Source: Nocardia vinacea (GTDB lineage Bacteria; Actinomycetota; Actinomycetes; Mycobacteriales; Mycobacteriaceae). From it: DNA of 64,000 nucleotides. Numbering within the stretch: the stretch's first letter is position 1; each line of letters starts with the position of its first letter. A model generated the notes under the pieces. The model was not told where the DNA came from, searched no databases, and worked only from the letters and a program-made list of their open reading frames with translations. The DNA lies in assembly GCF_035920345.1 (NCBI RefSeq), contig NZ_CP109149.1, positions 1,364,001-1,428,000 on the forward strand, given 5' to 3'. Of the stretch, positions 13,393-56,914 are shown one piece after another. A program made the translations under genes and the position numbers.

Positions 13393-13414
13393 TAGCATCC
13401 AGACACGTGTCCTG
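13393..13414 (+). promoter_or_regulatory. Promoter/operator of GMC oxidoreductase with TAGCAT-N8-GTGTCC geometry
   Basis: TAGCAT (13393-13398) is followed by CCAGACAC and then GTGTCC at 13407. The AGACA-CG-TGTCC inverted repeat spans 13401-13412. This is the same layout as at the two TetR genes, the P450s and the SDR at 56890. Here the NTG triplet opens only a two-codon frame (GTG TCC TGA). The predicted mRNA would have a leader of about 55 nt before ATG 13462. Confidence 0.65.
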
Positions 13415-13461
13415 AAACGTATTCCGCTCGATCAGGACGTGAGTAGCAGACAGGCGAAATC

Positions 13462-15075
13462 ATGACCGAAGCCGACTACATCGTCGTAGGCGCGGGCAGC
13501 GCCGGCGCCGTCATCGCGGGCCGACTGGCCGAGCACGGCGCCAACGTGATCCTGCTGGAGGCGGGACGCGCGGACAACACCCGACTGGTCTCCAGCCCCG
13601 GGCTGGTCACGATGGTCCACACCATTCCGGCGCTCAAAAAACGAGTGTGCTGGAAGCAGTACTCGATCCCGCAGAAGCACGCCAACGACCGCACGATCCC
13701 CATGACCCGCGGCAAGGTGCTCGGCGGCTCGAGCTCGGTGAACGGCATGCTTTACGTCCGCGGAAATCGAGCAAACTTCGATTCTTGGGCAGCGCAAGGT
13801 AATACCGGCTGGACCTACGAGGAGATCCTGCCCGCCTATAAGCGCCTCGAGAACTGGGAGGGCGGCCCCGACGCCTATCGCGGCGCCGGAGGACCCATCC
13901 AAGTCACCCGCCAGAAGGACCTCACCCCGATCGGCGAAGAGTTCATGACCGCAGCGTCCGAAACGCTCGGGACACCGATTATCGAGGACTACAACGGCGA
14001 ATCGCAGGAAGGCATCTCGATCTTCCAGCAGAGTGTCTGCAATGGCTTGCGCTACAGCTCTTCTCGCGCATTCATCACCGAACGGCCGAATGCGGGCCTG
14101 CAGGTCATCACGCGGGTCCACGTGACCCGCATCGTCATCGAGAACGGCCGCGCCACCGGCGTCGAAATCCAGGAGAACAACGGCGCGCGCCGAATCGTCC
14201 ACGCCGGCAAGGAGATCATCGTTTCCGGCGGCGTGATCGGCTCGCCGCAACTGCTCATGCTCTCTGGCGTCGGCCCGGCAGCACACCTTCGTGAACTCGG
14301 AATCACCGTGCACGCGGATCTACCGGTAGGCCAGAACCTGCACGATCACATGTTCGTGCCCATGACCTACATTTCAAAGAAAGCCATCCACCGCGGCATA
14401 CCCACGTATTTCGCCCGCGCGCTCCTGCGCGAACTGCGCCGTCCGGACAGTTCCTGGATGGGTCGCACCGTGTTCGAGGCCGTCGGCTTCGTCAAGACCA
14501 AATTCGCCGAGGCCGGTTACCCGGATATGCAGCTGCACAGTCTGCCGTGGAACTATCCGGTGCCCAATCAGGACGAGGACAAGATGTACCTGGTGGAGCG
14601 CCGCCCCGCACTGACGGTACTGCCCAGCCTGATCTATCCGAAGAGCCGTGGTGAGCTGAAATTGGCATCGACGGATCCCTTTGCCGCGCCGCTCATCGAC
14701 CCCGGCTATCTGAGCGATCCCCGCGATACCGAATTCCTGATCGAAGGCATCAGGACCGTCCGGGAGATCATGGCGCACAAGAGTATTGCCGGTGACCTCG
14801 TCGAGGAGCACACGCCCGGTAGGGAACTGATGGACGAGTCCGCGCTGCGGCGGGAACTGCCCAACCGGGTGCATTCGATCTATCACCCGGTCGGCACCTG
14901 CCGCATGGGCGTCGATGAGGCGGCCGTGGTCGACCCCGCGCTGAAGGTACGCGGCATAGAAGGGCTACGGGTCGCTGACGCTTCGATCATGCCGAGCATC
15001 ACGGGCGGCAATACCAACGCACCGTCGCTCATGATCGGTGAGAAGTGCGCGGAGATACTCGGCACCGTCGGCTAA
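13462..15075 (+). CDS. GMC-family FAD-dependent oxidoreductase (choline/alcohol dehydrogenase-like)
   Basis: The 537-residue protein starts with the FAD-binding motif DYIVVGAGSAGAVIAGRLAE and contains both GMC signatures: GKVLGGSSSVNGMLYVRGNR near residue 80-100 and SGGVIGSPQLLMLSGVGPA near 255. The C-terminal active-site segments are SIYHPVGTCRMGVDEAAVVD (catalytic His) and ITGGNTNAPSLMIGEKCA (Asn). Such enzymes oxidise primary or secondary alcohols, including choline, polyethylene glycol and terpenoid alcohols; the substrate here is unknown. Its promoter carries the operator shared with the P450 and mce units, suggesting a role in the same oxidation pathway. Confidence 0.92.
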   Translation: MTEADYIVVGAGSAGAVIAGRLAEHGANVILLEAGRADNTRLVSSPGLVTMVHTIPALKKRVCWKQYSIPQKHANDRTIPMTRGKVLGGSSSVNGMLYVRGNRANFDSWAAQGNTGWTYEEILPAYKRLENWEGGPDAYRGAGGPIQVTRQKDLTPIGEEFMTAASETLGTPIIEDYNGESQEGISIFQQSVCNGLRYSSSRAFITERPNAGLQVITRVHVTRIVIENGRATGVEIQENNGARRIVHAGKEIIVSGGVIGSPQLLMLSGVGPAAHLRELGITVHADLPVGQNLHDHMFVPMTYISKKAIHRGIPTYFARALLRELRRPDSSWMGRTVFEAVGFVKTKFAEAGYPDMQLHSLPWNYPVPNQDEDKMYLVERRPALTVLPSLIYPKSRGELKLASTDPFAAPLIDPGYLSDPRDTEFLIEGIRTVREIMAHKSIAGDLVEEHTPGRELMDESALRRELPNRVHSIYHPVGTCRMGVDEAAVVDPALKVRGIEGLRVADASIMPSITGGNTNAPSLMIGEKCAEILGTVG

Positions 15076-15084
15076 TGCCTGTGG

Positions 15085-15110
15085 CCCTGCTGATATTCAC
15101 TCCAGCAGGG
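15085..15110 (+). terminator. Hairpin after GMC oxidoreductase
   Basis: CCCTGCTG at 15085-15092 pairs with CAGCAGGG at 15103-15110, 9 nt after the GMC stop, and is followed by AAAAGGG. The stem is 8 bp with a 10-nt loop, so it is a moderate terminator candidate. Confidence 0.4.
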
Positions 15111-15327
15111 AAAAGGGTGGCCCTCCAGAACCCGCGATCGTCGATCGAGAGACGTCAGCTTCTCCCATCCCGGAACGCGAGTCGCCAACCGGCGGAAGTC
15201 GGCAACCACCGCCGATCCTACGTCGAGGTCTATCCGCTGCGAGCACCGTCGGGAGGGGCGGATCACCGAATCGGTTCCACGCCGTCGCTCAGGAGGGCCA
15301 ACCGGTCGTGCCTGCATAGATGGCCCT

Positions 15328-15582
15328 ATGCCCGGTGCACAGCGATTCCGTGTCACGACTATCGCCGAGGACGCCTCGGTTACTCATCTCGAGCTGTTCT
15401 TCGATTTGGTGATCGTTTTCGCGTTCACCATGGTCACCGACATGGCCGCGCACGAGACCACGGCGATCAACCTGTTGCGGGCCGTTATGACCTGGAGATC
15501 ATCATTTAGATCGATTGACCAGGTGCTTCGGGCGCTGTTGAATAGGGCTGCTATAGCTCATCGACCGTATAGGCCGCAATGA
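15328..15582 (+). pseudogene. ltrA-like gene, N-terminal fragment
   Basis: The first 55 residues (VTTIAEDASVTHLELFFDLV, IVFAFTMVTDMAAHETTA) match the start of low-temperature-requirement A (LtrA) membrane proteins, whose hallmark is LELFFDLVFVFA. Similarity stops near 15495 and the frame ends after about 84 codons, whereas LtrA proteins are about 370-400 residues. The rest is missing, and the following XRE gene starts at 15579, so a deletion or insertion has joined the two. Confidence 0.75.
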
Positions 15583-22364: not shown

Positions 22365-22376
22365 GGACTGAACTCC

Positions 22377-32456: not shown

Positions 32457-32975
32457 CTAGCGACGGTCGAGTATGCGCTGCGCGAGCTGTTCGGACGAGC
32501 GGTCGCCGCAGGAATCCGCGGCGTACCCGGTTGCGGCGTCGAACAGGGCGGCGGTGTAGATCGCCTCCAGGTTCTGGAGGATCGTGGTGTCGGGGCGCGG
32601 CCCCAGCGCGGCCCGGATTCTGCGCTGTATCTCACCCGCTGTCCGCGCGCGCAGGCGAAGCACGTCGAGGGCGTCGGATCTGAGATCGTTCTCTCTGCTC
32701 GACGTCATTTGTCCGGATATCGCCCGTGTTTGCGGCGCCGAGATCAGTTGGCGCCATAGCACTTCCGAGATCAATTGGGCATCGGATCCGAAGTATGTGT
32801 GCGCGGACGAGACGTTTACGCCGGCTTCGCAAGCGATGACCTGAACGGTGAGGCCCTCGAAGCCTTCTCGGGCGATGACGGTCCGAGCCGAATCGAGTAG
32901 CCGGTCGAGTATCTCGGCCCGATCTGTCTCGGAGTTGTCGAGCAGCTGACCGGTGACAGACAATTGATCGGACAT
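32457..32975 (-). CDS. TetR family regulator, paralog of the TetR at 44576
   Basis: The 172-residue protein has a TetR helix-turn-helix (LLDSARTVIAREGFEGLTVQ, ACEAGVNVSSAHTYFGSDAQ). It shares the distinctive segment YFGSDAQLISEVLWRQLISA with YFSSKEHLVSEVYWRRLIAA in the second TetR, so they are paralogs. ATG 32975 lies inside the perfect palindrome TCGGACA-CA-TGTCCGA, 8 nt after TAGCAT, suggesting a leaderless, autoregulated mRNA. The frame continues upstream, but the other starts lie ahead of the promoter. It probably controls the adjacent mce operon, the dehydrogenases or both. Confidence 0.87.
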   Translation of the reverse strand: MSDQLSVTGQLLDNSETDRAEILDRLLDSARTVIAREGFEGLTVQVIACEAGVNVSSAHTYFGSDAQLISEVLWRQLISAPQTRAISGQMTSSRENDLRSDALDVLRLRARTAGEIQRRIRAALGPRPDTTILQNLEAIYTAALFDAATGYAADSCGDRSSEQLAQRILDRR

Positions 32976-32989
32976 GTGTCCGAATGCTA
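32968..32989 (-). promoter_or_regulatory. Leaderless promoter with operator over the start codon (tetR, mce-adjacent)
   Basis: On the minus strand, TAGCAT (32989-32984) is followed by 8 nt, TCGGACAC, and then the start codon ATG TCC GAT (from 32975). TCGGACA-CA-TGTCCGA is a perfect inverted repeat and covers the start codon. This is the best-conserved member of the cluster-wide operator. Confidence 0.75.
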
Positions 32990-33191: not shown

Positions 33192-34277
33192 CTACTGCCG
33201 CACCGGCGTCGTGAACACGCCGGGTGCGGTCACCAGGGGGAGGTCGAGCATCGTACGGATGCCGGGCGCGGCCGCGACCACCGCGGGAATGGCGTTCACG
33301 ATGCGTCCAGCTGCCGCCACGATCGCGGCGTGGTTGTGATCGCCCTTGCGGCTGGTTGGGCAGATGTCCACGAAATAGGACGGCTCGCCGGTGATTTCGA
33401 CACGGTACGAGCCGCCCGCCTGTGCGGGTTGCGGCCAATCCGGGCACAAGTCCTCGCGCAGGCGCGTGATGTGCTCGATGACGATGGCCGGGTGCTCGCC
33501 GACCATGCCGCACAGTTCGAATCGCAGTGCGGCCAGACCGCCCTCGGGGATGTGTCCGGCGACGATGTCGAACGCCTCCGCGGCCGGAATCCGTTCGTAG
33601 CGTTCGGTGATCGTGTCCACGGTGATGCCGAGCCCGGTGGCGAGCTGCCGGATCGCGGGCCCCCACGCGAAGCTCAGCACGCCTGGCCGCAACAGCATCG
33701 GGGTTTCGTCGAGAGGTTTTCCGAAGCCCATGACGTCGAACATGACCGTCACGCCGTCGTAGGTCGCGTAGTCGGCGATTTCCATGCAGCGGACCTGCTC
33801 GACGGTCTGGCATGTACCCGTCAGCGCGAAGGGCAGCAGGTCGTTGGCGAATCCGGGGTCGACACCGGTGATGAACAAACTCGAATCACCTTGCCGCGCT
33901 GCCTCTTCAACCGAATCTATGTACTTCTGGGGCAATACTCGCCACGGATATTGCAACAATCCGGGGGCCGAGCCCACGACGTTCACTCCAGCCGCGAGGA
34001 TCCGCCGGCAATCCTCGATCGCCTCGTGCAGACGGGTGTCTCCCATCGCGCAGTAGACGACGCACTCCGGTTCGGTCGCGAGCAGTGCATCGATGTCGCC
34101 GACGGCCGCTATGTCGGTTGTGATGTCGAGACCGGCGAGTTCGCCGGCGTCTCGCCCGACCTTGCCGGGTGTCGACACGCATACGCCGGTCAGCTCGTAG
34201 CGGGGGCTTTCGATGAGGCCGGTGAGGGCAAGGCGGCCGACATTCCCGGTACCGACGTGGGCGACGCGGATGGGCAT
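33192..34277 (-). CDS. DapB-like NAD(P)-dependent dehydrogenase (2,4-diaminopentanoate dehydrogenase-like)
   Basis: The 361-residue protein begins with a Rossmann motif, IRVAHVGTGNVGRLALTGLI, followed by ATEPECVVYCAMGDTRLHEA and ILAAGVNVVGSAPGLLQYPW. The later FITGVDPGFANDLLPFALTG and FDVMGFGKPLDETPMLLRPG are typical of the actinobacterial dihydrodipicolinate-reductase-like family found in steroid and aliphatic catabolic clusters. The true substrate is unknown. ATG 34277 has GAGGAG at 6 nt. It is divergent from the FabG3-like gene and shares operator DNA with it. Confidence 0.85.
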   Translation of the reverse strand: MPIRVAHVGTGNVGRLALTGLIESPRYELTGVCVSTPGKVGRDAGELAGLDITTDIAAVGDIDALLATEPECVVYCAMGDTRLHEAIEDCRRILAAGVNVVGSAPGLLQYPWRVLPQKYIDSVEEAARQGDSSLFITGVDPGFANDLLPFALTGTCQTVEQVRCMEIADYATYDGVTVMFDVMGFGKPLDETPMLLRPGVLSFAWGPAIRQLATGLGITVDTITERYERIPAAEAFDIVAGHIPEGGLAALRFELCGMVGEHPAIVIEHITRLREDLCPDWPQPAQAGGSYRVEITGEPSYFVDICPTSRKGDHNHAAIVAAAGRIVNAIPAVVAAAPGIRTMLDLPLVTAPGVFTTPVRQ

Positions 34278-34337
34278 GGATTCTCCTCGCGAATTGTGGA
34301 TCAGTGCTGGTCAACATGACCTGGTCCAGAGTCCGGT

Positions 34338-34382
34338 CATATTTCCGGACAGTAGTCTGGATTGTGTTCCAGTTCGTATGTT
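34338..34382. promoter_or_regulatory. Overlapping divergent promoters with both operator classes (DapB-like / FabG3-like)
   Basis: For the minus strand, TACTGT (34354-34349) lies 8 nt before ATG at 34340-34338, almost the same sequence as at CYP51 (TACTGTCCGGA). That ATG opens a 9-codon frame ending at 34311, not coupled to the gene. For the plus strand, CTGGA-TTGTGT-TCCAG (34357-34372) lies 4 nt before TATGTT (34377-34382), matching the mce promoter. The predicted FabG3-like mRNA leader is only about 6 nt. Confidence 0.6.
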
Positions 34383-40534: not shown

Positions 40535-41776
40535 TCAGTACCGCACTTGCCAATGCTTGATGCCGTTGATCCAGCCCGAACGCAGGCGCTCGGGCTCGGA
40601 GACCTGGGACAGGTTCGGCATCGCGTCGGCGATGGCGTTGAACATCAGATCAATTTCCAGCCGGGCCAGGTTGGCGCCGACGCAGTAGTGTGCGCCCGTG
40701 CCGCCGAAGGCCAGATGCGGGTTGGGGTCGCGCAGGATGTCGAAGCTGAACGGGTTCTCGAAGGCGTCCTCGTCGAAATTGGCAGAGCTGTAGAACAATC
40801 CGACGCGTTGTCCCTGACGGATCAGCTGTCCGCCGAGTTCGGTGTCGGTGGTGGCGGTGCGCTGGAATGCGGTCACGGGAGTCGCCCAGCGCACGATCTC
40901 GTCGGGCGCGGTGCGTGGACGCTGCTGTTTGTAGAGCTCCCACTGGTCCGGATTGTCGACGAATGCCTTCATGCCGTGGGTGATGGCGTTACGAGTGGTC
41001 TCGTTGCCCGCTACCGCGAGCAGAATGACGAAGAAGCCGAATTCGTCCGAGCCCAGGGCTTCCCCGTCGACGTCGGCCTGTACGAGCTGGCTGACGATGT
41101 CGTCGAGCGGATCGGCGCGACGCTGTTCGGCCATGTTCCAGGCATAGCCGAGGATTTCCACCGACGCGTTGGTGCCCGCCGTCGTGGTGGTGGCGTCGCC
41201 GTATTCCGGGTCGTCGTAATTGAGCATCTGGTTGGACCAGTCGAACAGTTTACGGCGGTCTTCCTGTGGTACGCCGATGAGTTCGGCGATGGCCTGCAGG
41301 GGTAGTTCACACGCGACCTGTTCGACGAAGTCGCCGCCGCCCTCTTTCTCGGCCGCGTGCACGATGGCAGCCGCTCGTTCGGTCAGCGCGGCGCGCAACC
41401 CCTCGACGGCGCGTGGACTGAAGCCTTTGGAGATGATGCGCCGGATCTTGGAGTGCTTCGGCGGATCCATGTTCACCAGCAGTGCGCTGGTCAGTTCGAT
41501 CTGCTCGATGGTGATCTGCCCGGGCAGCCGGATGATGGAGCCTTTCTGCTGTGAGGAGAACAGCTCCGGTTTGCGCGAGATCTCTTTGATGTCCTCGTGT
41601 TTGGTGACCACCCAGTAGCCGCCGTCGCGGAATCCTCCGGACTGCGCATCGGTCTGCGGGTTCCACCACACCGGCGCGGTACGGCGCAACTCGGCGAATT
41701 CCTGGACGGGGTTGCGGGTTTCCCAGAGCACCGGGTCGGTGAAATCGAATCCAGCGGGAATGGACGGCGCTGACAC
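40535..41776 (-). CDS. cyp125: CYP125-family cytochrome P450 (steroid C26/C27 hydroxylase-like)
   Basis: The 413-residue P450 has the I-helix AGNETTRNAITHGMKAF, ExxR in DEIVRWATPVTAFQRT and heme loop FGGTGAHYCVGANLARLEID. SIPAGFDFTDPVLWETR, FVEQVACELPLQAIAELIGV and ERLRSGWINGIKHWQVRY closely match CYP125A1, which oxidises the cholesterol side-chain terminal methyl group. AGGAGGAAGC precedes the start. It lies 49 nt after CYP51 in the same direction, so it is probably in the CYP51 transcript. The substrate may be a sterol or another branched terpenoid. Confidence 0.9.
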   Translation of the reverse strand: MSAPSIPAGFDFTDPVLWETRNPVQEFAELRRTAPVWWNPQTDAQSGGFRDGGYWVVTKHEDIKEISRKPELFSSQQKGSIIRLPGQITIEQIELTSALLVNMDPPKHSKIRRIISKGFSPRAVEGLRAALTERAAAIVHAAEKEGGGDFVEQVACELPLQAIAELIGVPQEDRRKLFDWSNQMLNYDDPEYGDATTTTAGTNASVEILGYAWNMAEQRRADPLDDIVSQLVQADVDGEALGSDEFGFFVILLAVAGNETTRNAITHGMKAFVDNPDQWELYKQQRPRTAPDEIVRWATPVTAFQRTATTDTELGGQLIRQGQRVGLFYSSANFDEDAFENPFSFDILRDPNPHLAFGGTGAHYCVGANLARLEIDLMFNAIADAMPNLSQVSEPERLRSGWINGIKHWQVRY

Positions 41777-41825: not shown

Positions 41826-43178
41826 TCACCGCCGCCGACGGCGGTAGCGGACGCGGCACGGCTGCTGCAGCTGCACCACCATTTTGGAGTGATCGTTGCG
41901 ATAGGTGTCCGACGGCTGTGCCAGTTCGAACTCCCAGTCCCGCAACAGAATGGAGAAGATCGCTTTGAGCTGCATGAGCGCGAACGGCGCCCCGACGCAG
42001 CGATGACGGCCCGCGCCGAAGGGGATCCAGGTCCAGCGATTTACGATGTCCTCTTGCCGAGGATCAAGGTAGCGGCTCGGATCGAAGGTGTCCGGATCCG
42101 GGAAGTCCTCCGGAATCCGGTTGGAGATCGCCGGAGTCGCGGCCACCATGTCGCCCGGCGCGATCCGGTTGCCACACACCTCGAATTCGTCGCGGGCGAT
42201 GCGCATCAGGATGATCAGCGGCGGATGCAGGCGCAGCGCCTCCTTGAGCGCGGCTTCCAGGTTCGGAATCTGCCGCAGCGCATTGTGACTGACCTCCGAA
42301 CCGTCCGAGTACAGCTCGTCGAGCTCGGTGACGACGCTCGCCAGTGTTTCCGGGTGGCGCAACAGCTCGATGATCGTCCAGGCCGCGGTGCCGGAGGTGG
42401 TGTGGTGGCCGGCGAACATCATGGAGATGAAGATGCCGGTGATTTCGCTGGCGGAGAACCGTGGCGACCCGTTCTCGTCCTGCACCGAGATCAGGACGTC
42501 GAGCATGTCGCGGTCGTCCTTGCCCGTAGGTGGGTTCGCCTCGCGCTGATCCATGATCGCCTGCACGAGTTCGACGAGCTTGACGCGGGCTTCGTCGCGG
42601 CGACGGAAGCTCTCGATCGGCGCGTAGGGATCGACGTAGGCCAGGGCATCGGTGCCCTGCTCGAGTTCGTGATAGAGATGCGCGAAGCGGGAGTCGAGCT
42701 GGTTGCGGAACTTCACACCGATCAGGCAGGACGAGGAGGTGTAGATGGTCAACTCGGCGAAGAATTCGAGCAGGTCGATCTCGCCCTCGTCGTCCCACTG
42801 AGCCAGCATCTGGTCCACTTCGCGGGCGATGGTGGCGGCGTGCCCGCGCATGTGGTCGGCACGCAGGGCCGAATTGTGCAGCATCTCTTTGCGGCGTTCG
42901 GGTGGAGCGTCGAAGACGACGCCCTCGCCGAAGATCGGCTTCATGAACGGGTATGCCGCGCCCTGATCGAGGTCCTCGTCGCTGGCGCGGAAGAAGAATT
43001 CGTTGGCCTCGGCGCCTGACAGCAGGATCACATCGCGCCCGGCGAGCACGAATGACCCGACATCGCCGCATTCGGCGCGAACTCGCCGCATCAGCGCGAT
43101 CGGATCGGTGCGGAACTCCTCCAGGTGCCCGTGCTCATCCTCGCCTCCGGACACTCGCTGCGGCTTGACCAGCGTCAT
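41826..43178 (-). CDS. cyp51: CYP51-family cytochrome P450 (sterol 14-alpha-demethylase-like)
   Basis: The 450-residue P450 matches bacterial CYP51. The I-helix FAGHHTTSGTAAWTIIELLR, LKEALRLHPPLIILMRIARD and SNRIPEDFPDPDTFDPSRYL are present. So are the heme loop WIPFGAGRHRCVGAPFALMQ and YRNDHSKMVVQLQQP. Length equals M. tuberculosis CYP51B1 (451). CYP51 removes the 14-alpha-methyl group of sterols. ATG 43178 is coupled to a 15-codon micro-ORF (ATGA overlap) that begins inside the operator. CYP125 follows. Confidence 0.93.
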   Translation of the reverse strand: MTLVKPQRVSGGEDEHGHLEEFRTDPIALMRRVRAECGDVGSFVLAGRDVILLSGAEANEFFFRASDEDLDQGAAYPFMKPIFGEGVVFDAPPERRKEMLHNSALRADHMRGHAATIAREVDQMLAQWDDEGEIDLLEFFAELTIYTSSSCLIGVKFRNQLDSRFAHLYHELEQGTDALAYVDPYAPIESFRRRDEARVKLVELVQAIMDQREANPPTGKDDRDMLDVLISVQDENGSPRFSASEITGIFISMMFAGHHTTSGTAAWTIIELLRHPETLASVVTELDELYSDGSEVSHNALRQIPNLEAALKEALRLHPPLIILMRIARDEFEVCGNRIAPGDMVAATPAISNRIPEDFPDPDTFDPSRYLDPRQEDIVNRWTWIPFGAGRHRCVGAPFALMQLKAIFSILLRDWEFELAQPSDTYRNDHSKMVVQLQQPCRVRYRRRRR

Positions 43179-43222
43179 TGGAAATCCTTTCCGGGATACC
43201 TGTCCAGACAGATGATGGACAT
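43175..43222 (-). CDS. 15-codon leaderless micro-ORF coupled to cyp51
   Basis: ATG 43222 lies in the operator GGACA-CA-TGTCC, 8 nt after TACTGT (43236-43231), so it is the predicted first codon of the mRNA. The frame MSIICLDRYPGKDFQ ends in a TGA that overlaps the cyp51 ATG (ATGA at 43178-43175). GGAAAGGA for cyp51 lies inside it. It may couple translation of cyp51 to the operator-proximal start. Confidence 0.5.
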   Translation of the reverse strand: MSIICLDRYPGKDFQ

Positions 43223-43236
43223 GTGTCCGGACAGTA
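43198..43236 (-). promoter_or_regulatory. cyp51 promoter with two operators
   Basis: Going downstream on the minus strand: TACTGT (43236-43231), CCGGACAC, then ATGTCC forming GGACA-CA-TGTCC (43228-43217). A second site, CTGTCTGGACAGGT, follows at 43211-43198. Both match the cluster operator. Two sites suggest cooperative repression. Confidence 0.7.
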
Positions 43237-43982: not shown

Positions 43983-44576
43983 TCAGCTGCCGGCGCCCGG
44001 ATCGGCCAGCAGGCGCCGCGTGGAGATTTCCAGGAGGTCGGCGACCTCTTCGTAAGAGAGCAGTCCCATGCCTGCCTGCAACAGTGCGCCGGCGTAGAGC
44101 AATTCCAGCATCGAGAGACGTTCGGAGTCTTTCGATCCGAGCGCATCGGCGAGTCGGCTGCGAATCTCCCTGCCGATTCGCACCCGCAGATGCTGTACGT
44201 CGGGATCGTCGCCGAGCAGGGCATTGCTGACCGCGCTCGCCAATGCTGGTTCGTTGGCCACCAACATGGAAACCTGACGCAGGACCGCGACCACACGTGT
44301 GGCCGGATCCTCGTCACGAGTCTCCAGTGGTGGGGCGGCGATCAGGCGGCGCCAGTACACCTCCGAGACCAGATGCTCCTTTGAGGAGAAATACGTGTAG
44401 GCGGTGGCTGTTCCGACACCCGCAGCGGCGGCGACCAGTCGTATCGTTGTGCCGGAGTATCCTTCGCGGGACAATACATCGACTGCCGCCGCGGTCAGGC
44501 GGTCGACGGTGTCGGCCTGCTTCTCGGTGAGACGCCGTCGAGTTGCTTCGATGCCGGTAGATGCGAGTTCGGACAT
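43983..44576 (-). CDS. TetR family regulator of the P450 cluster
   Basis: The 197-residue protein has a TetR helix-turn-helix (AAAVDVLSREGYSGTTIRLV, AAAAGVGTATAYTYFSSKEH) and the segment LVSEVYWRRLIAAPPLE shared with the TetR at 32975. By position it corresponds to Rv0767c of M. tuberculosis as I recall that locus. ATG 44576 lies within AGACA-CA-TGTCC, 8 nt after TAGGAT, indicating a leaderless autoregulated gene. It is the best candidate for the protein binding the cluster-wide operator. Confidence 0.88.
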   Translation of the reverse strand: MSELASTGIEATRRRLTEKQADTVDRLTAAAVDVLSREGYSGTTIRLVAAAAGVGTATAYTYFSSKEHLVSEVYWRRLIAAPPLETRDEDPATRVVAVLRQVSMLVANEPALASAVSNALLGDDPDVQHLRVRIGREIRSRLADALGSKDSERLSMLELLYAGALLQAGMGLLSYEEVADLLEISTRRLLADPGAGS

Positions 44577-44590
44577 GTGTCTGGATCCTA
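44569..44590 (-). promoter_or_regulatory. Leaderless promoter with operator over the start codon (tetR, P450 cluster)
   Basis: TAGGAT (44590-44585), then CCAGACAC (8 nt), then the start codon ATG TCC GAA from 44576. AGACA-CA-TGTCC covers the start codon, matching the geometry at 32975 and 56890. Confidence 0.75.
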
Positions 44591-44647: not shown

Positions 44648-46273
44648 CTATTGATCGTCGCCCCCTCCCACCCGGTGGTCCGGGATGTGGGTGGCGGCAT
44701 AGTCTTTGGCCCACCGGTAGTCGGGTTTGCCGCTGGGGGATCGGGTGATGGTTTCGGCGACCCAGATGGTGCGAGGCACCTTGTAACCGGCGAGGTGACG
44801 GCGCACGTGGGCGGTCAGCGCGCCGAAGTCCAGCGGCCCAGCGCCTGCGATGGAGACCACCGCGGCGACCTGCTGTCCCCAGCGCTCGTGCGCGATGCCG
44901 ACGACTACAGCGTCGAACACCGAATCATGGGATTTCAGAACGCCTTCGACTTCCTCCACGAACACCTTCTCGCCGCCGGTGTTGATCACCATATTGCCGC
45001 GGCCGAGCAAGGTGATGGAGCCGTCGGCCTCGGCGCGGGCACGGTCGTCGGTGACCACCATGCGGACTCCGTCGACGGTCTTGAACAGGCGCTCCGTCTT
45101 TGCGCTGTCCTTGTAGTAACCCAGCGGCACCGAGCCGGTCTTCGCCAGCCAGCCCTGCGTGCCGGCCGCGACCGGCCGCCCGGAGTCGTCGACCACCACC
45201 GCGCCGCGGCCGGTCTGCACGCGCGGTCCGCGCCCCGGATCATCGTCCTTGTTGGCGAAACCGATTCCGCCGAAGCCTGTTTCGGATGATCCGATGGAAT
45301 CGGAGACCACCGTGGACGGAAACGTTTCCAGCAGAGCGTTTTTCACCGGCTGAGACAGCAGCGCCGCGCCGGAGGCGATGGCCAGCAGCGAGGACGCGTC
45401 CACCGGGTCGGCGGCATAGGCGTCGAGCAGCGGGCGGGCGATAGCGTCGCCAGTGATCACCATGACCTGGGGCCGTTCGCGTTCCACCGTTCGCCACACC
45501 TGTCGCGCATCGAACTTCGACTCGAACACGATGGTATTGCCGGTCCACAGCGCGGTGAACGTGGGCATCATCGCCGCGGCGTGGATCAGCGGCGGCAGGA
45601 TCAGCCAGGTGCTGGGATCGGTCTGCGCGCCGACCCGGGATTGCTGGAATTCGTCGGTGACGGGCTCACCGGTGTAGAAATCGATGCCGCCGCCGAGGAC
45701 CCGCCACATGTCCTCCTGACGCCACATCACGCCTTTGGGCATGCCGGTGGTACCGCCGGTGTACATCATGAACAGGTCGTCGGCGCTGCGCTCGATCTCG
45801 CGACGCGCGGGCGATCCGGCTCCGAGGGCCGCCTCGTAGCTTCCGGCCGTACTGTCGAGGTGTTCGCTGCACAGATCGTCGTCCGCCACGATGGCGTGGC
45901 GCACGCAGGGTATGCGTGAGAGTGCCAGTGCCACAGCAGGTTCGTAACTGCGGTGGTATACCAGGACTTCGATGTCGGCGTTGTCGTAGAGGTAGCACAG
46001 CTCCTCGACGCCGTAACGGTAGTTGACATTGATCGGGACCGCCCGGAGCTTGAAGCAGGCGAGGAGGGTCTCCATGGTCTCGATGCTGTTGTGCATCTGG
46101 AAACCTATATGGGACCCGGTGCTTACGCCGATCGAAGCGAGGTGATCGGCCAGCCGATTGGCCCGGGTGTCGAGTTCGGCGAAGGTGATGCTCCGGCCGC
46201 CGTGGATCAGAGCGATGCGGTCGGGCATCGCGTCGACGGAATGTTCGAATAGGTCAGCGAAGTTGCACGCCAT
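44648..46273 (-). CDS. FadD19-like acyl-CoA synthetase
   Basis: The 541-residue ANL ligase has the phosphate loop MMYTGGTTGMPKGVMWRQED, IGSSETGFGGIGF, GYYKDSAKTERLFKTVDGVR, and a C-terminal catalytic Lys region SPSGKPDYRWAKDY after VEEVEGVLKSHDSVFDAVVV. The segments around MYTGGTTGMPKGVMWRxED and KxDYRWAK resemble FadD19, which activates the C8/C24 side-chain acids of sterols to CoA thioesters. It is the last gene of the six-gene CYP123 operon. Confidence 0.9.
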   Translation of the reverse strand: MACNFADLFEHSVDAMPDRIALIHGGRSITFAELDTRANRLADHLASIGVSTGSHIGFQMHNSIETMETLLACFKLRAVPINVNYRYGVEELCYLYDNADIEVLVYHRSYEPAVALALSRIPCVRHAIVADDDLCSEHLDSTAGSYEAALGAGSPARREIERSADDLFMMYTGGTTGMPKGVMWRQEDMWRVLGGGIDFYTGEPVTDEFQQSRVGAQTDPSTWLILPPLIHAAAMMPTFTALWTGNTIVFESKFDARQVWRTVERERPQVMVITGDAIARPLLDAYAADPVDASSLLAIASGAALLSQPVKNALLETFPSTVVSDSIGSSETGFGGIGFANKDDDPGRGPRVQTGRGAVVVDDSGRPVAAGTQGWLAKTGSVPLGYYKDSAKTERLFKTVDGVRMVVTDDRARAEADGSITLLGRGNMVINTGGEKVFVEEVEGVLKSHDSVFDAVVVGIAHERWGQQVAAVVSIAGAGPLDFGALTAHVRRHLAGYKVPRTIWVAETITRSPSGKPDYRWAKDYAATHIPDHRVGGGDDQ

Positions 46274-48330: not shown

Positions 48331-49124
48331 GAGCGGCTCCCTGCGTCGCCGGAGAGCACCCGGGCCTCGGGCTGGACTTCGGTGAGCTGAATATGGGCGC
48401 CGCGCGGTGCGGAGACGACCGCGACGATGGAGGTGGCCAGATGGGCGGCGCGCAGCATTTCGGGATGCCGCGCGAAACCCCACTTCGACCAGTCCTCGAG
48501 CACCGGGCCGATGATCTCCGAGGTGGTGTCCATGCCCATGCCGGTGAGAGTCGGGCCGGGCCGCACGAGCGAGGCCCGAATGCCGGTGCCTTCCAACTCC
48601 ATCCACATCTGCCGGGCCATGACCTCGACCGCGGTCTTGGCGGCGGGGTAGGCCCCCATGCGCGGGCGGGGGTTGTTCGCGGTGTCGGAACTGATGATCA
48701 CGAAATCGCCGCGCTGTCTGGCGATCATGCCGGGGATGACGCGGTTGGCCAGCCGTTGCACGCCGATCAGGTGAACGTTGATCTGTTGCAGGAAGTGCTC
48801 GGGACTCATCTCGTGCACCAGGGAGAACGACAGGTCGCCGGCTCCGGACACCACTATCTCGGCCGGGCCCAGCGCGGCCTCGGCGGCGGTGACGAAGGCG
48901 TCGACCGATGCGGTGTCGCCGACGTCGAGGTAGTGCGCGAACGCTTCACCGCCGTTGCTCGTGATCTTCGCGGCGAAGGCCTCGCACTGCTCGATGCGAC
49001 GGGCGCCCAGAGCCACCGGAAAGCCGAGTTCGGCCAGCGCTTCGGCAGTGGCCGCGCCGATGCCGGAGGAGGCCCCGGCGATCAAGGCGGGCCGGCGGTC
49101 GGGGTGGGGTTCGAACCCGGGCAT
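48327..49124 (-). CDS. Short-chain dehydrogenase/reductase (Rv0765c-like)
   Basis: The 265-residue SDR has PALIAGASSGIGAATAEALA, VSGAGDLSFS and YPAAKTAVEVMARQMWMELE with Ser in IISSDTANNP. The position between a CYP123-like P450 and a ferredoxin matches Rv0765c. The NNAG motif is replaced by SGAG, which is seen in this subgroup. It overlaps the P450 stop (TAATG). It probably oxidises the hydroxylated product. Confidence 0.88.
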   Translation of the reverse strand: MPGFEPHPDRRPALIAGASSGIGAATAEALAELGFPVALGARRIEQCEAFAAKITSNGGEAFAHYLDVGDTASVDAFVTAAEAALGPAEIVVSGAGDLSFSLVHEMSPEHFLQQINVHLIGVQRLANRVIPGMIARQRGDFVIISSDTANNPRPRMGAYPAAKTAVEVMARQMWMELEGTGIRASLVRPGPTLTGMGMDTTSEIIGPVLEDWSKWGFARHPEMLRAAHLATSIVAVVSAPRGAHIQLTEVQPEARVLSGDAGSRS

Positions 49125-50329
49125 TACCGGACCTCCACGGTGATGGGAAGTTTGGCGAATCCGCGGACGTTCGTCGAGTGCACGCGTTCGATGCCGGCCT
49201 CGACGAGGTCGTAACCGCGGACGCGAGAGGCGAATTCGCGCAGGGCGATCGTGGTCTCCAAGCGAGCCAGGTGAGCGCCGAGGCAGAAGTGCACTCCCGC
49301 ACCGAAACTGGCGAGGTTGCCTTTGTCGGGACGGTCGATCCGATAGGAGTCGCCGTCTTCGAACACCTCCGAGTCACGGTTGGCCGAGCCGATAAGCAGC
49401 AGTACCTTCGAACCGGCCGGAATCGTCAAGCCGTGCATGTCGATATCGGTCGCGGCGCTACGCGCCACGATCTGGCTCGAGGTGTCATAGCGCAGTGTCT
49501 CCTCGACCCAGTCCGGCACCAGGTCGGGGTCGGCGAAAACCTTGGCGTATTCGCCCGGGTTGCGTGCCGACCAGTACAGGGCGTTGCCGAGCAGTTTGGT
49601 GGTGGTTTCGTTCCCGGCGACCACCATCAGGAACATGAATCCGATGATCTCTTCGTCGCTGAGTCGATCGCCGTCGATCTCGGCGTGCAGCAGTGCGGAG
49701 GTGAGATCCTCGGTTGGCGTGCGCCGCCGTTCGGCGACCATGTCGCTGTAGTAGCCGAGCAGTTTCAGCGCGGCTTCGATGGCCGCGACCGGCACATCGA
49801 GCACGCCCTCCTCGCGGTGGACGACCAGATCGGCGAGCCGGCGTACCTCGGCGCGATCGGTTTCCGGCACGCCCATGAGCTCGGAGATGACGTCCATGGG
49901 CAGCTTCCCGGCGAAATCCTCGATCCAATCGAAGGTTCCGCGCGCCAACGCCGGTTCCAGGTGCTCGAGGGTCAATTCGTGTATCCGGCTGTCCATTTCG
50001 GTCACCCGGCGCGGCGTGAAGCCCTTGTAGACCAGCCGCCGCATGCGCACGTGCCGCGGATCGTCCATGGCGAGAAAGGACATCGTCCTGTGCGCGTGCG
50101 GGCCCCAGGCGGCGGGATCCAGCGACACACCATTGGCGCTGGAGAGCCGCACGTTGTCCCGGAAGGCAGCGATGACGTCGGAGTGCCGCGACAATGCCCA
50201 GAAGTTCAGCTCCGGATTGTGGTACAGCGGGGCGTCGGTGCGCAGGCGCTCGTAGGTCGGGTACGGATCGTCGTGGAACCGATAGTCGTAAGGGTCGAAC
50301 GTGAACGGCTCCAGTGCGGCCGAAGTCAT
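49124..50329 (-). CDS. CYP123-like cytochrome P450
   Basis: The 401-residue P450 has I-helix VVAGNETTTKLLGNALYWSA, ExxR in VEETLRYDTSSQIVARSAAT and heme loop FGAGVHFCLGAHLARLETTI. PYDYRFHDDPYPTYERLRTD, NFWALSRHSDVIAAFRDN and FAGKLPMDVISELMGVPETD closely match M. tuberculosis CYP123 (Rv0766c). The substrate of CYP123 is unknown. It heads the operon P450-SDR-ferredoxin-NTF2-unknown-FadD and is coupled to an 11-codon micro-ORF. Confidence 0.92.
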   Translation of the reverse strand: MTSAALEPFTFDPYDYRFHDDPYPTYERLRTDAPLYHNPELNFWALSRHSDVIAAFRDNVRLSSANGVSLDPAAWGPHAHRTMSFLAMDDPRHVRMRRLVYKGFTPRRVTEMDSRIHELTLEHLEPALARGTFDWIEDFAGKLPMDVISELMGVPETDRAEVRRLADLVVHREEGVLDVPVAAIEAALKLLGYYSDMVAERRRTPTEDLTSALLHAEIDGDRLSDEEIIGFMFLMVVAGNETTTKLLGNALYWSARNPGEYAKVFADPDLVPDWVEETLRYDTSSQIVARSAATDIDMHGLTIPAGSKVLLLIGSANRDSEVFEDGDSYRIDRPDKGNLASFGAGVHFCLGAHLARLETTIALREFASRVRGYDLVEAGIERVHSTNVRGFAKLPITVEVR

Positions 50330-50364
50330 TACACCCCTCTCCAGGAAGACACATAGCTGGACAT
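50329..50364 (-). CDS. 11-codon leaderless micro-ORF coupled to the CYP123-like gene
   Basis: ATG 50364 is in AGACA-CA-TGTCC, 8 nt after TACCGT. The frame MSSYVSSWRGV ends with TAA at 50331-50329, overlapping the P450 ATG by one base (TAATG). GGAGAGGGG inside it can serve the P450. The layout mirrors that at cyp51. Confidence 0.5.
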   Translation of the reverse strand: MSSYVSSWRGV

Positions 50365-50378
50365 GTGTCTGGACGGTA
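50357..50378 (-). promoter_or_regulatory. Promoter/operator of the CYP123-like operon
   Basis: TACCGT (50378-50373), CCAGACAC (8 nt), ATGTCC from 50364. The operator AGACA-CA-TGTCC matches those at the TetR genes. It lies 150 bp from the divergent aldA promoter. Confidence 0.7.
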
Positions 50379-50510
50379 TCACCGACAGGAGTTCATCACA
50401 AAGGTCAACTCCGGATATCGTCAGGATCCAGCGTGACCGAGGGTGTTCGCCACCGTGGTGACGGAGGTTGTCGCCGGGCGTTGCCCTTGCGCCCGGTCAA
50501 GTCTCCGAAC

Positions 50511-50557
50511 TATATTCCGAACACCTGTCCAGACATGTATCGGAGCTTGCATCATGA
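50511..50557 (+). promoter_or_regulatory. aldA promoter/operator with TATATT-N8-CTGTCC
   Basis: TATATT (50511-50516), CCGAACAC (8 nt), then CTGTCCAGACATG; GAACA-CC-TGTCC is the operator. From CTG 50525 a 10-codon frame runs to a TGA that overlaps the aldA ATG (ATGA at 50554-50557), as at cyp51, but a CTG start is uncertain. The 17-bp CGAACACCTGTCCAGAC also occurs at 13304-13320. Confidence 0.6.
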
Positions 50558-52023
50558 ACGGCCTCGTCCCTCCTGAGGGCACGCCCCTGCTGATCGGCGG
50601 CAAGCTGGTCCCCGGCGGCTCGGGCGTCTTCGCGACGATCAATCCCGCGACCGAGGAAGTGCTCGGCCACGCTGCCAACGCCTCGGCCGAGGATATGAAC
50701 GCGGCCGTCGGCGCGGCACAGACCGCCTTCGCCGAGACCGATTGGTCCCGTGATCCCGCCTTCCGTGCGCACTGCCTGCGTCAGTTGCGAGACATCATGC
50801 GCGATCACATCGAGGAGTTGCGCGCGATCACGGTCGCCGAGGTCGGCGCGCCCGTCATGCTCACCAGTGGCCCACAGCTGGAAGGACCGATCGGTGATCT
50901 GTCGTTCTCCGCCGACCTAGCCGAAACCTACTCGTGGGAAACCGATCTCGGCACCGCCGAGCAGATGGGCATCTCGAGCCGGCGCGTGGTCCGCCGCGAG
51001 GCGGTGGGCGTGGTCGGGGCCATCACGCCGTGGAACTTCCCGCATCAGATCAACCTGGCGAAGGTCGGGCCCGCACTGGCCGCCGGAAACACGGTGGTGC
51101 TCAAGCCCGCTCCGGACACACCCTGGTGTGCGGCGGCACTCGGCCCGCTCATTGCCGAGCACACCGACATCCCGGCGGGCGTGCTCAATATCGTCACCTC
51201 CGACGACCACACCCTGGGCGCGCGGCTGGTCGAGGATCCGCGGGTCGACATGATCACCTTCACCGGATCGACCCAGACGGGGCGATCGGTGATGGCGGGT
51301 GCGTCGGCCTCCCTCAAGCGCACGTTCCTAGAGCTCGGCGGCAAATCTGCCGCCATCGTTCTCGATGACGCCGACATCGCGGGCGCCGCGAGCTATACCG
51401 CGTTCTCGGTCGCCCTGCACGCCGGACAAGGCTGCGCGTTGACCACTCGCATGCTGGTGCCGCGCGCGGCCTACGACGAGGCGGTCGCCGCGGCGGCCAA
51501 AGCGCTGTCCGGCATCCGGGCCGACGATCCGACCAAGCCCGGAACCGTGTGCGGGCCTTTGATTTCCGCACGCCAGCGCGATCGGGTGGAGCGCTATCTC
51601 GACATCGCCCGCGCCGAGGGCGGGCGCATCGTGGTCGGGGGCGGCCGGCCGTCAGGCAAAGACCGGGGCTTCTTCATCGAGCCGACGCTCATCGCCGGGC
51701 TCGGCAACACCGCCACCGTCGCTCAGGAGGAAATCTTCGGTCCGGTGCTCGTGGTGATTCCGTACGACGGTGACGCCGATGCGATCCGGCTGGCCAACGA
51801 ATCGCCCTACGGTCTTTCCGGTTCGGTGTGGGGCGCCGATTCCGAACGCGTCGACCGGGTGGTCTCGGGCGTGCGCACCGGGACGCTGAGTGTGAACGGC
51901 GGGCTCTGGTACCACGCCGACGCGCCGTTCGGCGGCTACAAGCAATCCGGCATCGGCCGGGAGATGGGCGTCGCGGGTTTCGAGGAATACCTCGAAACCA
52001 AGTTGATCGCCACCCCTGCCTGA
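50554..52023 (+). CDS. aldA: NAD-dependent aldehyde dehydrogenase (AldA, Rv0768-like)
   Basis: The 489-residue ALDH has VVGAITPWNFPHQINLAKVG, FTGSTQTGRSVMAGASASLK, catalytic Glu in FLELGGKSAAIVLDDADIAG and catalytic Cys in HAGQGCALTTRMLVPR, then QEEIFGPVLVVIPYDGDADA. It oxidises an aldehyde to an acid, plausibly the product of the P450/SDR steps. Its position divergent from the CYP123 operon matches M. tuberculosis aldA (Rv0768). Confidence 0.92.
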   Translation: MNGLVPPEGTPLLIGGKLVPGGSGVFATINPATEEVLGHAANASAEDMNAAVGAAQTAFAETDWSRDPAFRAHCLRQLRDIMRDHIEELRAITVAEVGAPVMLTSGPQLEGPIGDLSFSADLAETYSWETDLGTAEQMGISSRRVVRREAVGVVGAITPWNFPHQINLAKVGPALAAGNTVVLKPAPDTPWCAAALGPLIAEHTDIPAGVLNIVTSDDHTLGARLVEDPRVDMITFTGSTQTGRSVMAGASASLKRTFLELGGKSAAIVLDDADIAGAASYTAFSVALHAGQGCALTTRMLVPRAAYDEAVAAAAKALSGIRADDPTKPGTVCGPLISARQRDRVERYLDIARAEGGRIVVGGGRPSGKDRGFFIEPTLIAGLGNTATVAQEEIFGPVLVVIPYDGDADAIRLANESPYGLSGSVWGADSERVDRVVSGVRTGTLSVNGGLWYHADAPFGGYKQSGIGREMGVAGFEEYLETKLIATPA

Positions 52024-54158: not shown

Positions 54159-54173
54159 CCGGAAGGCGGTCAT

Positions 54174-54366
54174 TCCGATCGCGGATCCGCTCGCACACGT
54201 TCGCATCCGCGCCGCTCGCCACACCGTATGCGCCCGGATTGCCGATACCGAAGAGCGGCAACGACTCTGGCTCCCTTTGACCGAGTTGTACGCCGATTTC
54301 GATACCTACCAGTCGTGGACGCGGCGCGAGATCCCGGTGGTGATCCTCTCGTGTATGACCCGATGA
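54174..54366 (+). pseudogene. Ddn-type (F420H2-dependent nitroreductase family) C-terminal remnant
   Basis: In frame with the stop at 54364-54366, the sequence reads RHTVCARIADTEERQRLWLP then LTELYADFDTYQSWTRREIP and VVILSCMTR. The TxEERxxLWxxLxxxYxxxxxYQxxTxRxIPVVxL pattern is the end of Ddn/DUF385 deazaflavin-dependent proteins. The N-terminal 80 or so residues are absent; the LLM gene ends just upstream. Confidence 0.7.
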
Positions 54367-54412
54367 CAAGTCCATATCGCTGCGTCGAACGCGCGGCAGT
54401 GAGGAGGCGGAG

Positions 54413-55291: not shown

Positions 55292-55309
55292 GGCGGCGTC
55301 GGGGCGAGC

Positions 55310-55981
55310 CTCGGTGGCAGAGAAACTTCCGGACAGATCCTCCCCGGGTATGCCCAGACGCCGATCTCCGGATGCGCCGACCGCGTACACGATCGCATGA
55401 CAGTACTCGAGAAGTTCGCGATGCGAGATATCGCTTCCGACATCGACATTCAGGTGGAACCGGACGGAATCGCGTTTGAACGCCGCCCCGAACATATCGG
55501 TGACCCCGCGCGTTTCGGGGTGGTCGGGCGCTACACCGTAGCGGGCCAGGCCCCATGGAGCCGGCAGCCGGTCGAACATCTCGATCTCCACGTGGCCACG
55601 GGAAAGCAGCTGCTCGGCGGCGTAACAGGCGGCGGGGCCGGTGCCGACGATAGCGACACGCAGCGGTCCGCGATCGCGGGGCAGCCGCTGCGTGGTCGCC
55701 GCGGCGATGATCCCGATGTCGAGCGGGTGGTGCCGGAACCAGGCCGCGTTCACCTCTGCGTAGCGGGCCAATTCCGGGGGCAGGTCATCGTCGCCGTAGA
55801 TCGCGTCCACCGGGCAGGCTTCGACGCACGCCCCGCAGTCGATGCAGGTGTCGGGGTCGATGTGCAACATTTCGGCGGTGGCGAAGCCCGGATCGTCCGG
55901 GCGCGGCCGGATGCAGTCGACCGGGCATTCCGTGACGCAACTGGCATCGTTGCAGCAACGCTGCGTGACTATGTAGGCCAT
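55310..55981 (-). pseudogene. fprB: FprB-like ferredoxin/ferredoxin-NADP reductase, C-terminally truncated
   Basis: From ATG 55981 the protein has a 7Fe ferredoxin domain (QRCCNDASCVTECPVDCIRP, DPDTCIDCGACVEACPVDAI) and the start of an adrenodoxin-reductase-like FAD domain (RVAIVGTGPAACYAAEQLLS, FDRLPAPWGLARYGVAPDHP). Similarity ends at GEDLSGSFSATE (about 55310), after some 224 residues; intact FprB is about 560. The frame then runs into antisense of the SDR at 54413. A deletion joined the two genes, removing the NADP-binding part, so it cannot be a working reductase. Confidence 0.85.
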
Positions 55982-56026
55982 GGGCATGTCCTCATGAGAT
56001 AGAAACCGGGAGAGTGGGTTTCGGGA

Positions 56027-56890
56027 TCAGGGATTGCGCAGCCGGTCGTCGTAGCCGCGGCGGGCGTCGCGGTCGACACGGTCGAGGAAGGTGGTGTGCA
56101 CGCCGAGCCGCCTGGCGATGAACTCGCCGAGGGGGCGCGGGGTGAGTTTGTTGAAGGTAGCGAGGACACCCGCTGCGCGGGTCACCGTGACGCGTCGTCG
56201 TGGACGTGCGATGAGCGCGGCAACAGCCGCGGCGACGTCCTCCGGATCGGCCAGCAAGCCGAGCGGAGCGCGGGTCCCCGCGATCAGCTCGGTGCGGGTG
56301 AACGTAGGCAGGACCGCCGAGAATCGGACCCCGCTGTCCCGGTGTTCCAGTCGCATCGCCTCGGTGAATCCGAGCACCGCCTGCTTGCTCGCGCAGTACG
56401 TCCCCAAGCCCGGAGTCGGGTTCTCGCCGGCCAATGAGGCGATGTTCACGATATGGCCCTGTCCGCGCGAAAGCATCCGAGGCAGAGCAAGTTTGGTGCC
56501 GAGCATGACGCCATAGACGTTGATGCCGAGGATACGGCGAGTGATCTCGTCGGACTCCTCGGTGAACCGTCCGACCGGCATGATGCCCGCGTTGTTGATC
56601 AACACATCGATTGGGCCGATGGTGGATTCGACCTTGTCGAGGAATGCCCCGAACGACAGGGCATCGGTGACATCGAGATGGTGCGCGACGACCGGAGTCG
56701 GCTCGGTACCGGCCCGGGCGACCGCGTCGCGGTCGATGTCCCCGACGGCGACATACGACCCGAACCGGGAGAGCTCGTTGGCGATGGCGCGGCCGATGCC
56801 GCGGACCCCACCGGTGATCGCGACGACCTTGCCGTGGTGTGACCGGGAGGCGAGGGCGCGGAATGGAACGAGGTGATGTTTTTCGGACAT
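56027..56890 (-). CDS. Short-chain dehydrogenase/reductase with operator over its start codon
   Basis: The 287-residue SDR has KVVAITGGVRGIGRAIANEL, VLINNAGIMPVGRFTEESDE, VNIASLAGENPTPGLGTYCA and SKQAVLGFTEAMRLEHRDSG, and a C-terminal tail like Rv0068/Rv1245c-type SDRs. ATG 56890 is preferred: it lies in AGACA-CA-TGTCC, 8 nt after TAGTAT, exactly like the two TetR genes. An in-frame ATG at 56914 (again ATGTCCGAA) would lie upstream of that -10. It followed an active fprB before that gene was truncated. Confidence 0.87.
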   Translation of the reverse strand: MSEKHHLVPFRALASRSHHGKVVAITGGVRGIGRAIANELSRFGSYVAVGDIDRDAVARAGTEPTPVVAHHLDVTDALSFGAFLDKVESTIGPIDVLINNAGIMPVGRFTEESDEITRRILGINVYGVMLGTKLALPRMLSRGQGHIVNIASLAGENPTPGLGTYCASKQAVLGFTEAMRLEHRDSGVRFSAVLPTFTRTELIAGTRAPLGLLADPEDVAAAVAALIARPRRRVTVTRAAGVLATFNKLTPRPLGEFIARRLGVHTTFLDRVDRDARRGYDDRLRNP

Positions 56891-56914
56891 GTGTCTGGAT
56901 ACTATTTCGGACAT
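56883..56914 (-). promoter_or_regulatory. Leaderless promoter/operator of the SDR, with a second half-site
   Basis: TAGTAT (56904-56899), CCAGACAC (8 nt), ATGTCCGA from 56890. A second ATGTCCGAA copy begins at 56914, 24 bp upstream. The direct repeat may form part of the operator or reflect duplication. Confidence 0.7.

Follow-up and report, generated by a model that had tools for sequence, protein, structure and literature searches.

Can the binding site of a repressor also provide the start codon of the genes under its control? This question is raised by a 64,000-nucleotide stretch of the genome of Nocardia vinacea (contig NZ_CP109149.1, positions 1,364,001 to 1,428,000 of the forward strand; referred to below as the window, with coordinates counted from its first letter unless another source is named), in which copies of a short composite element, a −10-like hexamer TANNNT followed by a palindromic core GACA-NN-TGTC, accompany genes for TetR-type repressors and for enzymes of a sterol cluster. 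The original prediction, made from the letters of the window, had taken eight such sites for the operators of one regulon, each covering the −10 element, the transcription start, and the start codon of a leaderless mRNA. The single regulon, the fixed register between operator and −10 element, and the leaderless starts at the genes for TetR and, on fewer sequences, for a short-chain dehydrogenase (SDR) are supported by comparison; the remainder is not. The composites are probably promoter–operator elements that belong to a single regulon, with a TetR repressor of the Rv0767c type as its most likely regulator, and the NTG triplet within the operator would constitute the leaderless start codon of the TetR and SDR genes. 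In Nocardia and many of its relatives, promoter, switch, and start codon appear to be merged into approximately 20 bases.

Composite sites in the window

All eight sites were recovered with the coordinates, strands, and spacing given in the original prediction. Seven of them represent a single composite, TANNNT-CCRGACAC-NTGTCC, and the site at 34354 is a weak eighth. The looser pattern TANNNT-N8-NTGTCC matches the window nine times against 0.43 matches expected, a number reached by none of 100 shuffles of the window; seven of the nine are listed sites, and the two others, at 39768 (+) and 174 (−), resemble chance occurrences. A refined pattern, TANNNTNCNGACACNTGTCC, allowing up to two mismatches, yields eight window matches (0.23 expected), being exact at six listed sites and deviating by one mismatch at 50511 and by two at an unlisted position, 50495-50514 (−). 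It misses the site at 34354 (TACTGTCCGGAAATATGACC), which fits the composite only loosely. The palindrome RGACA-NN-TGTCC, predicted for most sites, is present in full form at six of the eight, the exceptions being 34354 and 50511. An extended −10 element (TGN before the hexamer) was found at one site only, 50378, and the operator does not cover the −10 element as had been proposed: its 10-bp core, GACA-NN-TGTC, begins 3 nt downstream of the hexamer and thus abuts it.

As predicted, the NTG coincides with a protein start at three sites. The composite at TetR-A (44571..44590, −), for which orthologous loci were compared, provides the ATG at 44576 with which TetR-A begins; the composite at TetR-B (32970..32989, −) provides its ATG at 32975, and all four TetR-B sites listed contain an in-frame ATG; and the composite at the SDR gene (56885..56904, −) contains an ATG at 56890 in frame with the SDR, as do three of three listed sites of this class. 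A leaderless SDR start inside the operator, at 56890, is supported by these few sequences as a likely arrangement. The remaining triplets are out of frame (13393, 43236, 50378), run into an early stop (34354 and again 13393), or read CTG (50511), and the claim that every site is the leaderless start of the adjacent protein therefore holds for three of the eight sites in the window. Upstream of a GMC oxidoreductase gene, the composite at 13393..13412 (+) contains a GTG at 13407 with a stop at codon 3, and the weak composite GGAAATATGACC (34335..34354, −), which lacks a match to the refined pattern, precedes the dehydrogenase gene at 33192-34277. At CYP51, the ATG at 43222 of the composite 43217..43236 (−) opens a 15-codon open reading frame (ORF; 43175..43222, −) whose TGA overlaps the CYP51 ATG (ATGA). 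At the CYP123-like P450, the composite 50359..50378 (−), the sole site with TGN before the −10 element, has an ATG at 50364 that opens an 11-codon ORF (50329..50364, −), the TAA of which overlaps the P450 ATG by a single base (TAATG). The composite upstream of the Rv0768-type aldehyde dehydrogenase (ALDH) gene (50511..50530, +) bears the triplet CTG, and the ALDH ATG at 50554 is preceded by GGAG.

Additional sequences were seen around some of the sites. Downstream of the operator, half-site-like sequences are apparent in the class consensus of CYP51 (TGTCTGGACAG; window 43200-43210, −) and of CYP123 (TGTGTCT; window 50347-50353, −), where a second dimer is perhaps bound. At the SDR site (window 56881-56914, −), ATGTCCGAAA flanks the −10 element on both sides, and weaker look-alikes of it lie immediately upstream of the −10 element at 13393 and 50511.

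Register of operator, −10 element, and expected transcription start

The position of the hexamer relative to the palindrome is fixed. TANNNT lies exactly 14 nt before the NTG in 189 of the 220 operator cores located near a reference gene start (at most 10 cores at any other offset), a sorting that partly relied on an ALDH reference in the wrong frame; among 240 other cores, TANNNT occupies that offset in 31 (10 cores at the second most frequent offset). A fixed spacing of this kind would also be expected if the motif were an extended promoter element, for example one recognized by an alternative sigma factor, rather than a repressor site. This explanation is very unlikely in view of the symmetry of the motif. 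When TetR genes were selected for an in-frame RTG and TANNNT at −14, with the palindrome not part of the selection pattern, TGTC follows in 37/37 and 21/21 distinct 24-mers and GACA precedes in 33/37 and 21/21; at the four dyad pairs, complementarity is seen in 33, 37, 37, and 37 of 37 sites, respectively, and without exception in the 21. Also speaking against a mere promoter element are the occurrence of the site at the TetR gene start in 73 of 77 loci (see below) and a published comparison in which the motif was matched to one predicted for Rv0767c (PMC6593523).

In the consensus of the CYP51 and CYP123 sites, a TTG precedes the hexamer by 23 nt. The hexamer is centred approximately 11.5 nt before the RTG, a spacing that allows transcription to start at the start codon: in Mycobacterium tuberculosis, according to the text of PMC3898074, 73% of the primary starts that have been mapped are preceded by a TANNNT whose centre lies 7–12 bp away. 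Judged from spacing, transcription could begin at the A of the RTG or 2 nt upstream of it (5′-ACAUG), both of which fit; the latter possibility would speak against a strictly leaderless start.

The start codon at the TetR genes

The strict composite was found in 73 of 77 TetR loci that had been collected by protein search and not by motif search (71 from Nocardia, five from Rhodococcus, and one from Mycobacterium shimoidei, with some genomes contributing more than one). It was also present in 30 of 30 further TetR loci from 15 other genera, a number that is uninformative with regard to the frequency of the composite, since the 35 family genomes concerned had been chosen mostly for carrying the motif (30 of 49 matches were examined), although frame and RTG had not been selected. 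In all 103 composites (61 and 26 distinct sequences) the operator RTG is in frame with TetR, at spacings of 15, 18, 21, 27, 39, 42, 54, and 60 nt when measured to the position aligned with residue 10, which is the glutamate (E) of the motif E[AS]TRR; these are eight values, all multiples of three. Because the frame is maintained throughout at such spacings, there is strong evidence that the TetR gene is expressed from a leaderless mRNA whose predicted start codon lies inside the operator.

The same sites have to be considered under a more conventional arrangement, in which an ordinary operator spans the transcription start, the TetR mRNA carries a leader, translation begins at a downstream ATG or GTG, and the in-frame NTG is incidental. 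Such an arrangement draws on the fact that the core itself forces TG at the triplet position, and 50 of the 117 distinct TetR sequences have a second in-frame ATG, GTG, or TTG ahead of the conserved motif. Moreover, at one locus (L092, TetR at 10001) the frame opened by the operator ATG runs for four codons before a stop, an observation that also counts against the leaderless reading; here, a downstream ATG may be used instead. An incidental NTG is nevertheless difficult to reconcile with 103 composites that all retain the frame at eight different spacings, and 67 of the 117 sequences contain no other in-frame ATG, GTG, or TTG before E[AS]TRR (four further sequences without a recognizable motif were excluded from the 117). 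The one free base of the triplet is likewise constrained, being A or G at 125 of 126 TetR sites versus 27 of 70 ALDH sites. A leadered TetR mRNA is therefore unlikely, and a leaderless start at the operator RTG is favored.

Possible coupling of short ORFs to the enzyme genes

At the enzyme genes, the relation between the short ORF opened by the triplet and the downstream gene was scored by pooling four-base and one-base overlaps of the short-ORF stop with the enzyme start. By this measure, CYP123 leaders with an RTG are coupled in 36 of 53 cases in the true frame; if the start is displaced by one or two bases, the counts fall to 4 and 4. The corresponding numbers for ALDH leaders are 19 of 25 versus 2 and 4 with an RTG, and 13 of 43 versus 4 and 21 with a YTG (CTG or TTG), the latter triplets being present in 32 of the 47 operators at ALDH genes of Nocardia. 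Counting ALDH leaders that are either coupled or in frame as linked, the RTG class (22/27) exceeds the YTG class (17/43) with a Fisher p of 0.0006, a value weakened by kinship; by lineages at the 0.8 threshold, linked to unlinked amount to 11.0 to 2.0 for RTG and 4.2 to 3.8 for YTG. Taken together, the sequences offer moderate evidence for short-ORF coupling at the CYP123-like P450 and at the RTG-type ALDH, but not at CYP51 (12 of 37).

A conserved leader peptide at CYP51 or CYP123 was considered as well and rejected, since the leaders lack a gene-like codon-position signature: differences by codon position are 127/103/115 in CYP123 leaders versus 125/90/252 in the genes, and 48/70/80 in CYP51 leaders versus 69/82/450 in the genes. 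Such non-conserved leader peptides agree with the portion of PMC4633059 that describes coupling as independent of the peptide.

The long CYP123 leaders have a further feature. In 32 of 40, a KstR-like sequence, AACNNGTT, lies 26–32 nt before the P450 start (e.g., L016:1606-1700, +), against 0.22 expected by shuffling. Its presence suggests that the CYP123-type P450 could be under dual control with KstR.

Distribution in the genome, the genus, and the family

Within the 10.36-Mb genome, the looser pattern TANNNT-N8-NTGTCC, which the original prediction had put forward for a genome-wide search, is not enriched (58 matches versus 90 for the reversed control). The more specific pattern TANNNTNCNGACACATGTCC has seven exact matches, five in the window and two at 5.386 and 5.397 Mb; at up to two mismatches, 14 matches are obtained (seven in the window, four in the second cluster, and three elsewhere) versus five for the reversed control. 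The sterol cluster thus occurs twice in the genome in related forms, at 1.377–1.421 Mb and 5.380–5.397 Mb, each with its own operators and its own TetR, the two TetRs being 64% identical; the second comprises TetR, a divergent P450/ALDH pair, and CYP51. The comparative evidence supports a single regulon. The palindrome core RGACANNTGTCC alone was discarded as a regulon marker, with 32 strand-hits in the genome (11 reversed), many of them outside both clusters. An orphan palindrome, GGACACATGTCC (C1:3209168-3209187, L018), has no TANNNT in register and overlaps the start of an unrelated ORF.

Beyond this genome, 143 of 150 genomes of the genus (N. vinacea included) have at least one match at up to one mismatch, compared with 7 for the reversed control. 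A draw of 401 genomes from the family, surveyed with a slightly different pattern, gave matches in 207 genomes and 20 of 31 genera (reversed control, 6). The 52 genomes of the own genus included in it all match, as do 155 of the 349 outside the genus; three genera (g3, g9, and g19) are nearly without the motif. At several loci (L255, L260-L263, and L265), the ALDH gene has an upstream TGTCC-like site outside the composite pattern.

Genes and identity of the cluster

The region is the known CYP51/Rv0768/Rv0767c-type sterol locus, a point absent from the original prediction. A CYP51 sterol cluster follows from the assignment of three genes. The first encodes a sterol 14alpha-demethylase-like CYP51 of the Rv0764c type (41826..43178, −; the piece 41826-43019 matches a PDB chain named CYP51-like Rv0764c with an E-value of 1.1e-202), the second a CYP125-like P450 (steroid C26-monooxygenase; 40535..41776, −), assigned by sequence match, and the third an ALDH of the Rv0768 family (50554..52023, +; TIGR04284, 869.5 bits versus a cut-off of 775). 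A further P450 with a P450 domain (49124..50329, −) is here called CYP123-like, a provisional name based on the Rv0764c–Rv0768 gene order of M. tuberculosis. Pfam domains identify a GMC-family oxidoreductase (13462..15075, +; no NCBIfam model above cut-off), a dehydrogenase with a DAP_DH_C domain (33192..34277, −), and the SDR (56027..56890, −; PRK07825 model above cut-off). An acyl-CoA synthetase (44648..46273, −; Pfam and family models) is encoded directly upstream of the TetR-A gene on the same strand.

Of the two repressors, TetR-A (43983..44576, −; Pfam TetR_N, PF00440, above cut-off) was compared with its relatives and is of the Rv0767c type, and TetR-B (32457..32975, −; Pfam TetR domain) is 37% identical to it. 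The closest named relative of TetR-A is from N. vinacea (96%). Against the KstR model, TetR-A itself gives a weak match of 41.9 bits, far short of the cut-off of 280. Naming TetR-A by solved structures was abandoned, as these gave generic TetR matches only, among the best 60 of 84. Its gene neighborhood and the existence of a Mycobacterium shimoidei relative (L135) suggest that TetR-A is probably orthologous to M. tuberculosis Rv0767c.

A proposed model for the regulon

The regulator of the regulon is most likely TetR-A, the Rv0767c-type repressor encoded at 43983-44576, a role that TetR-B may share. The core GACA-NN-TGTC lies across the expected transcription start, where the repressor, once bound, would stand in the way of RNA polymerase. 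Since the expected RNA start coincides with the TGTC half-site, every operator would carry an NTG at, or within approximately 2 nt of, the 5′-end of the transcript. For TetR and the SDR this NTG is ATG or GTG, and translation of a leaderless mRNA would begin with it. In the case of the CYP123-like P450 and the RTG-type ALDH it usually opens a short ORF with a stop overlapping the enzyme start, so that ribosomes loading at the 5′-end could be handed over to the enzyme, and operators with CTG or TTG apparently make use of an ordinary leader. Gene content and the published phytosterol induction point to a sterol, or a product of its degradation, as the probable inducer.

The operator half-site inside the start region of TetR genes also suits a repressor acting twice, on transcription and, by binding the RNA or during initiation, on translation from the embedded start codon. 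The separate translational block, which formed part of the original prediction, is unsupported and hardly credible: a repressor sitting on the transcription start already accounts for repression and needs no second step, TetR proteins generally bind double-stranded DNA, and the CYP51, CYP123-like, ALDH, and GMC genes of the window begin elsewhere than at the triplet.

Several further observations weigh against the promoter–operator reading or limit its reach. TetR-A as the binding protein is suggested by its location and by published motif predictions. Four of the 77 TetR loci (L072, L087, L093, and L115) are without the strict composite, and the counts overstate independence, many of the sequences being related. 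In the window, two of the seven RTG sites (13393 and 34354) are neither gene start nor coupled. Among the 37 CYP51 leaders no frame is clearly preferred, 12, 4, and 9 being coupled when each of the three frames is taken in turn, and their distances fall in all three residues, unlike those of TetR; the lack of conservation of the short-ORF peptides counts here too. With the loosest clustering, linked to unlinked ALDH lineages are 7.0 to 2.0 for RTG and 0.4 to 1.6 for YTG. No motif lies within 200 nt upstream of 23 of 30 P450 and 6 of 30 ALDH loci of other genera, and the same is true for four P450 and four ALDH loci of Nocardia; in many of the motif-free P450 loci, the P450 directly follows the TetR gene on the same strand.

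On balance, we regard it as a tentative extension of the promoter–operator reading, somewhat more likely to fail than to hold, that the operator half-site doubles as the 5′-terminal start codon of most transcripts of the regulon, be it the start of a protein or of a handing-over ORF free of sequence requirements. If so, DNA recognition and translation start would have co-evolved within approximately 20 bp, an arrangement seen at the TetR gene in the own genus and in 15 others. Operator, transcription start, and start codon would here be obliged to evolve together, a natural example of such a constraint, and the arrangement suggests a route by which a DNA-binding motif could seed 5′-terminal start codons and coupled short ORFs. 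In practical terms, the composite offers a precise, testable site for the sterol-cluster regulator that Nocardia and Rhodococcus have in common with further genera of their family (with one Mycobacterium locus), and indicates the correct start codons of regulon genes.

Comparison with known systems

Control of lipid and sterol catabolism by a TetR protein is familiar from the KstR regulon, which resembles the present one in this respect and differs in its operator. A closer relative was described in 2019 for Mycobacterium sp. VKM Ac-1817D, in which a palindromic motif X lies beside 14 operons, 12 of which are upregulated more than threefold with phytosterol; the study links this motif to the Rv0767c orthologue G155_05115 and treats a copy near the TetR gene start codon as a possible sign of autoregulation (PMC6593523). 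Both regulons comprise a TetR of the same named family, P450s, and aldehyde and short-chain dehydrogenases, and in two cases of the motif X regulon KstR sites are found nearby (PMC6593523). The published motif is presented as a figure logo, and its letters are presumably the same as those of the present operator. In contrast to the present analysis, the main text of that paper is free of the words leaderless and transcription start, and the passages compared say nothing of the register of a −10 element, the frame of the start codon, or coupled ORFs (PMC6593523). The Rv0767c motif with which motif X was compared apparently stems from a MEME prediction with an E-value of 1.2e-14, under the high-significance line of the paper as worded in its text (PMC4482099), and Rv0767c ChIP sites are described in the text of PMC10312376 as enriched for GAC and GTC, in agreement with GACA/TGTC.

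Individual elements of the arrangement have parallels elsewhere, as far as the texts of the respective papers describe them. In acuR-acuI-dddL of Rhodobacter sphaeroides, an autogenous TetR is likewise expressed from a leaderless mRNA starting at its AUG, with an operator overlapping the promoter; however, this inverted repeat apparently does not supply the start codon, and the system is one operon rather than a multi-promoter regulon (PMC3017554). The nreAXY promoter of Mesorhizobium is also a compact, repressor-controlled leaderless promoter, with TTG and TAGNAT and a 5′-end mapped to the A of the AUG, but it employs a CsoR/RcnR repressor and an operator between −35 and −10 (PMC12724321). 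The RTGA-coupled leaderless small ORFs of mycobacteria resemble the putative ones considered here in that a 5′-terminal RTG opens a short ORF overlapping the start of the next gene, whereas their RTG is not tied to an operator that supplies it (PMC4633059). In the accessible passages of the open-licence literature, supplementary files aside, no text joins the operator of this regulon to a leaderless start codon. The regulon and its palindrome are already known, and what is new here is the geometry that places −10 element, operator, and start codon in one register.

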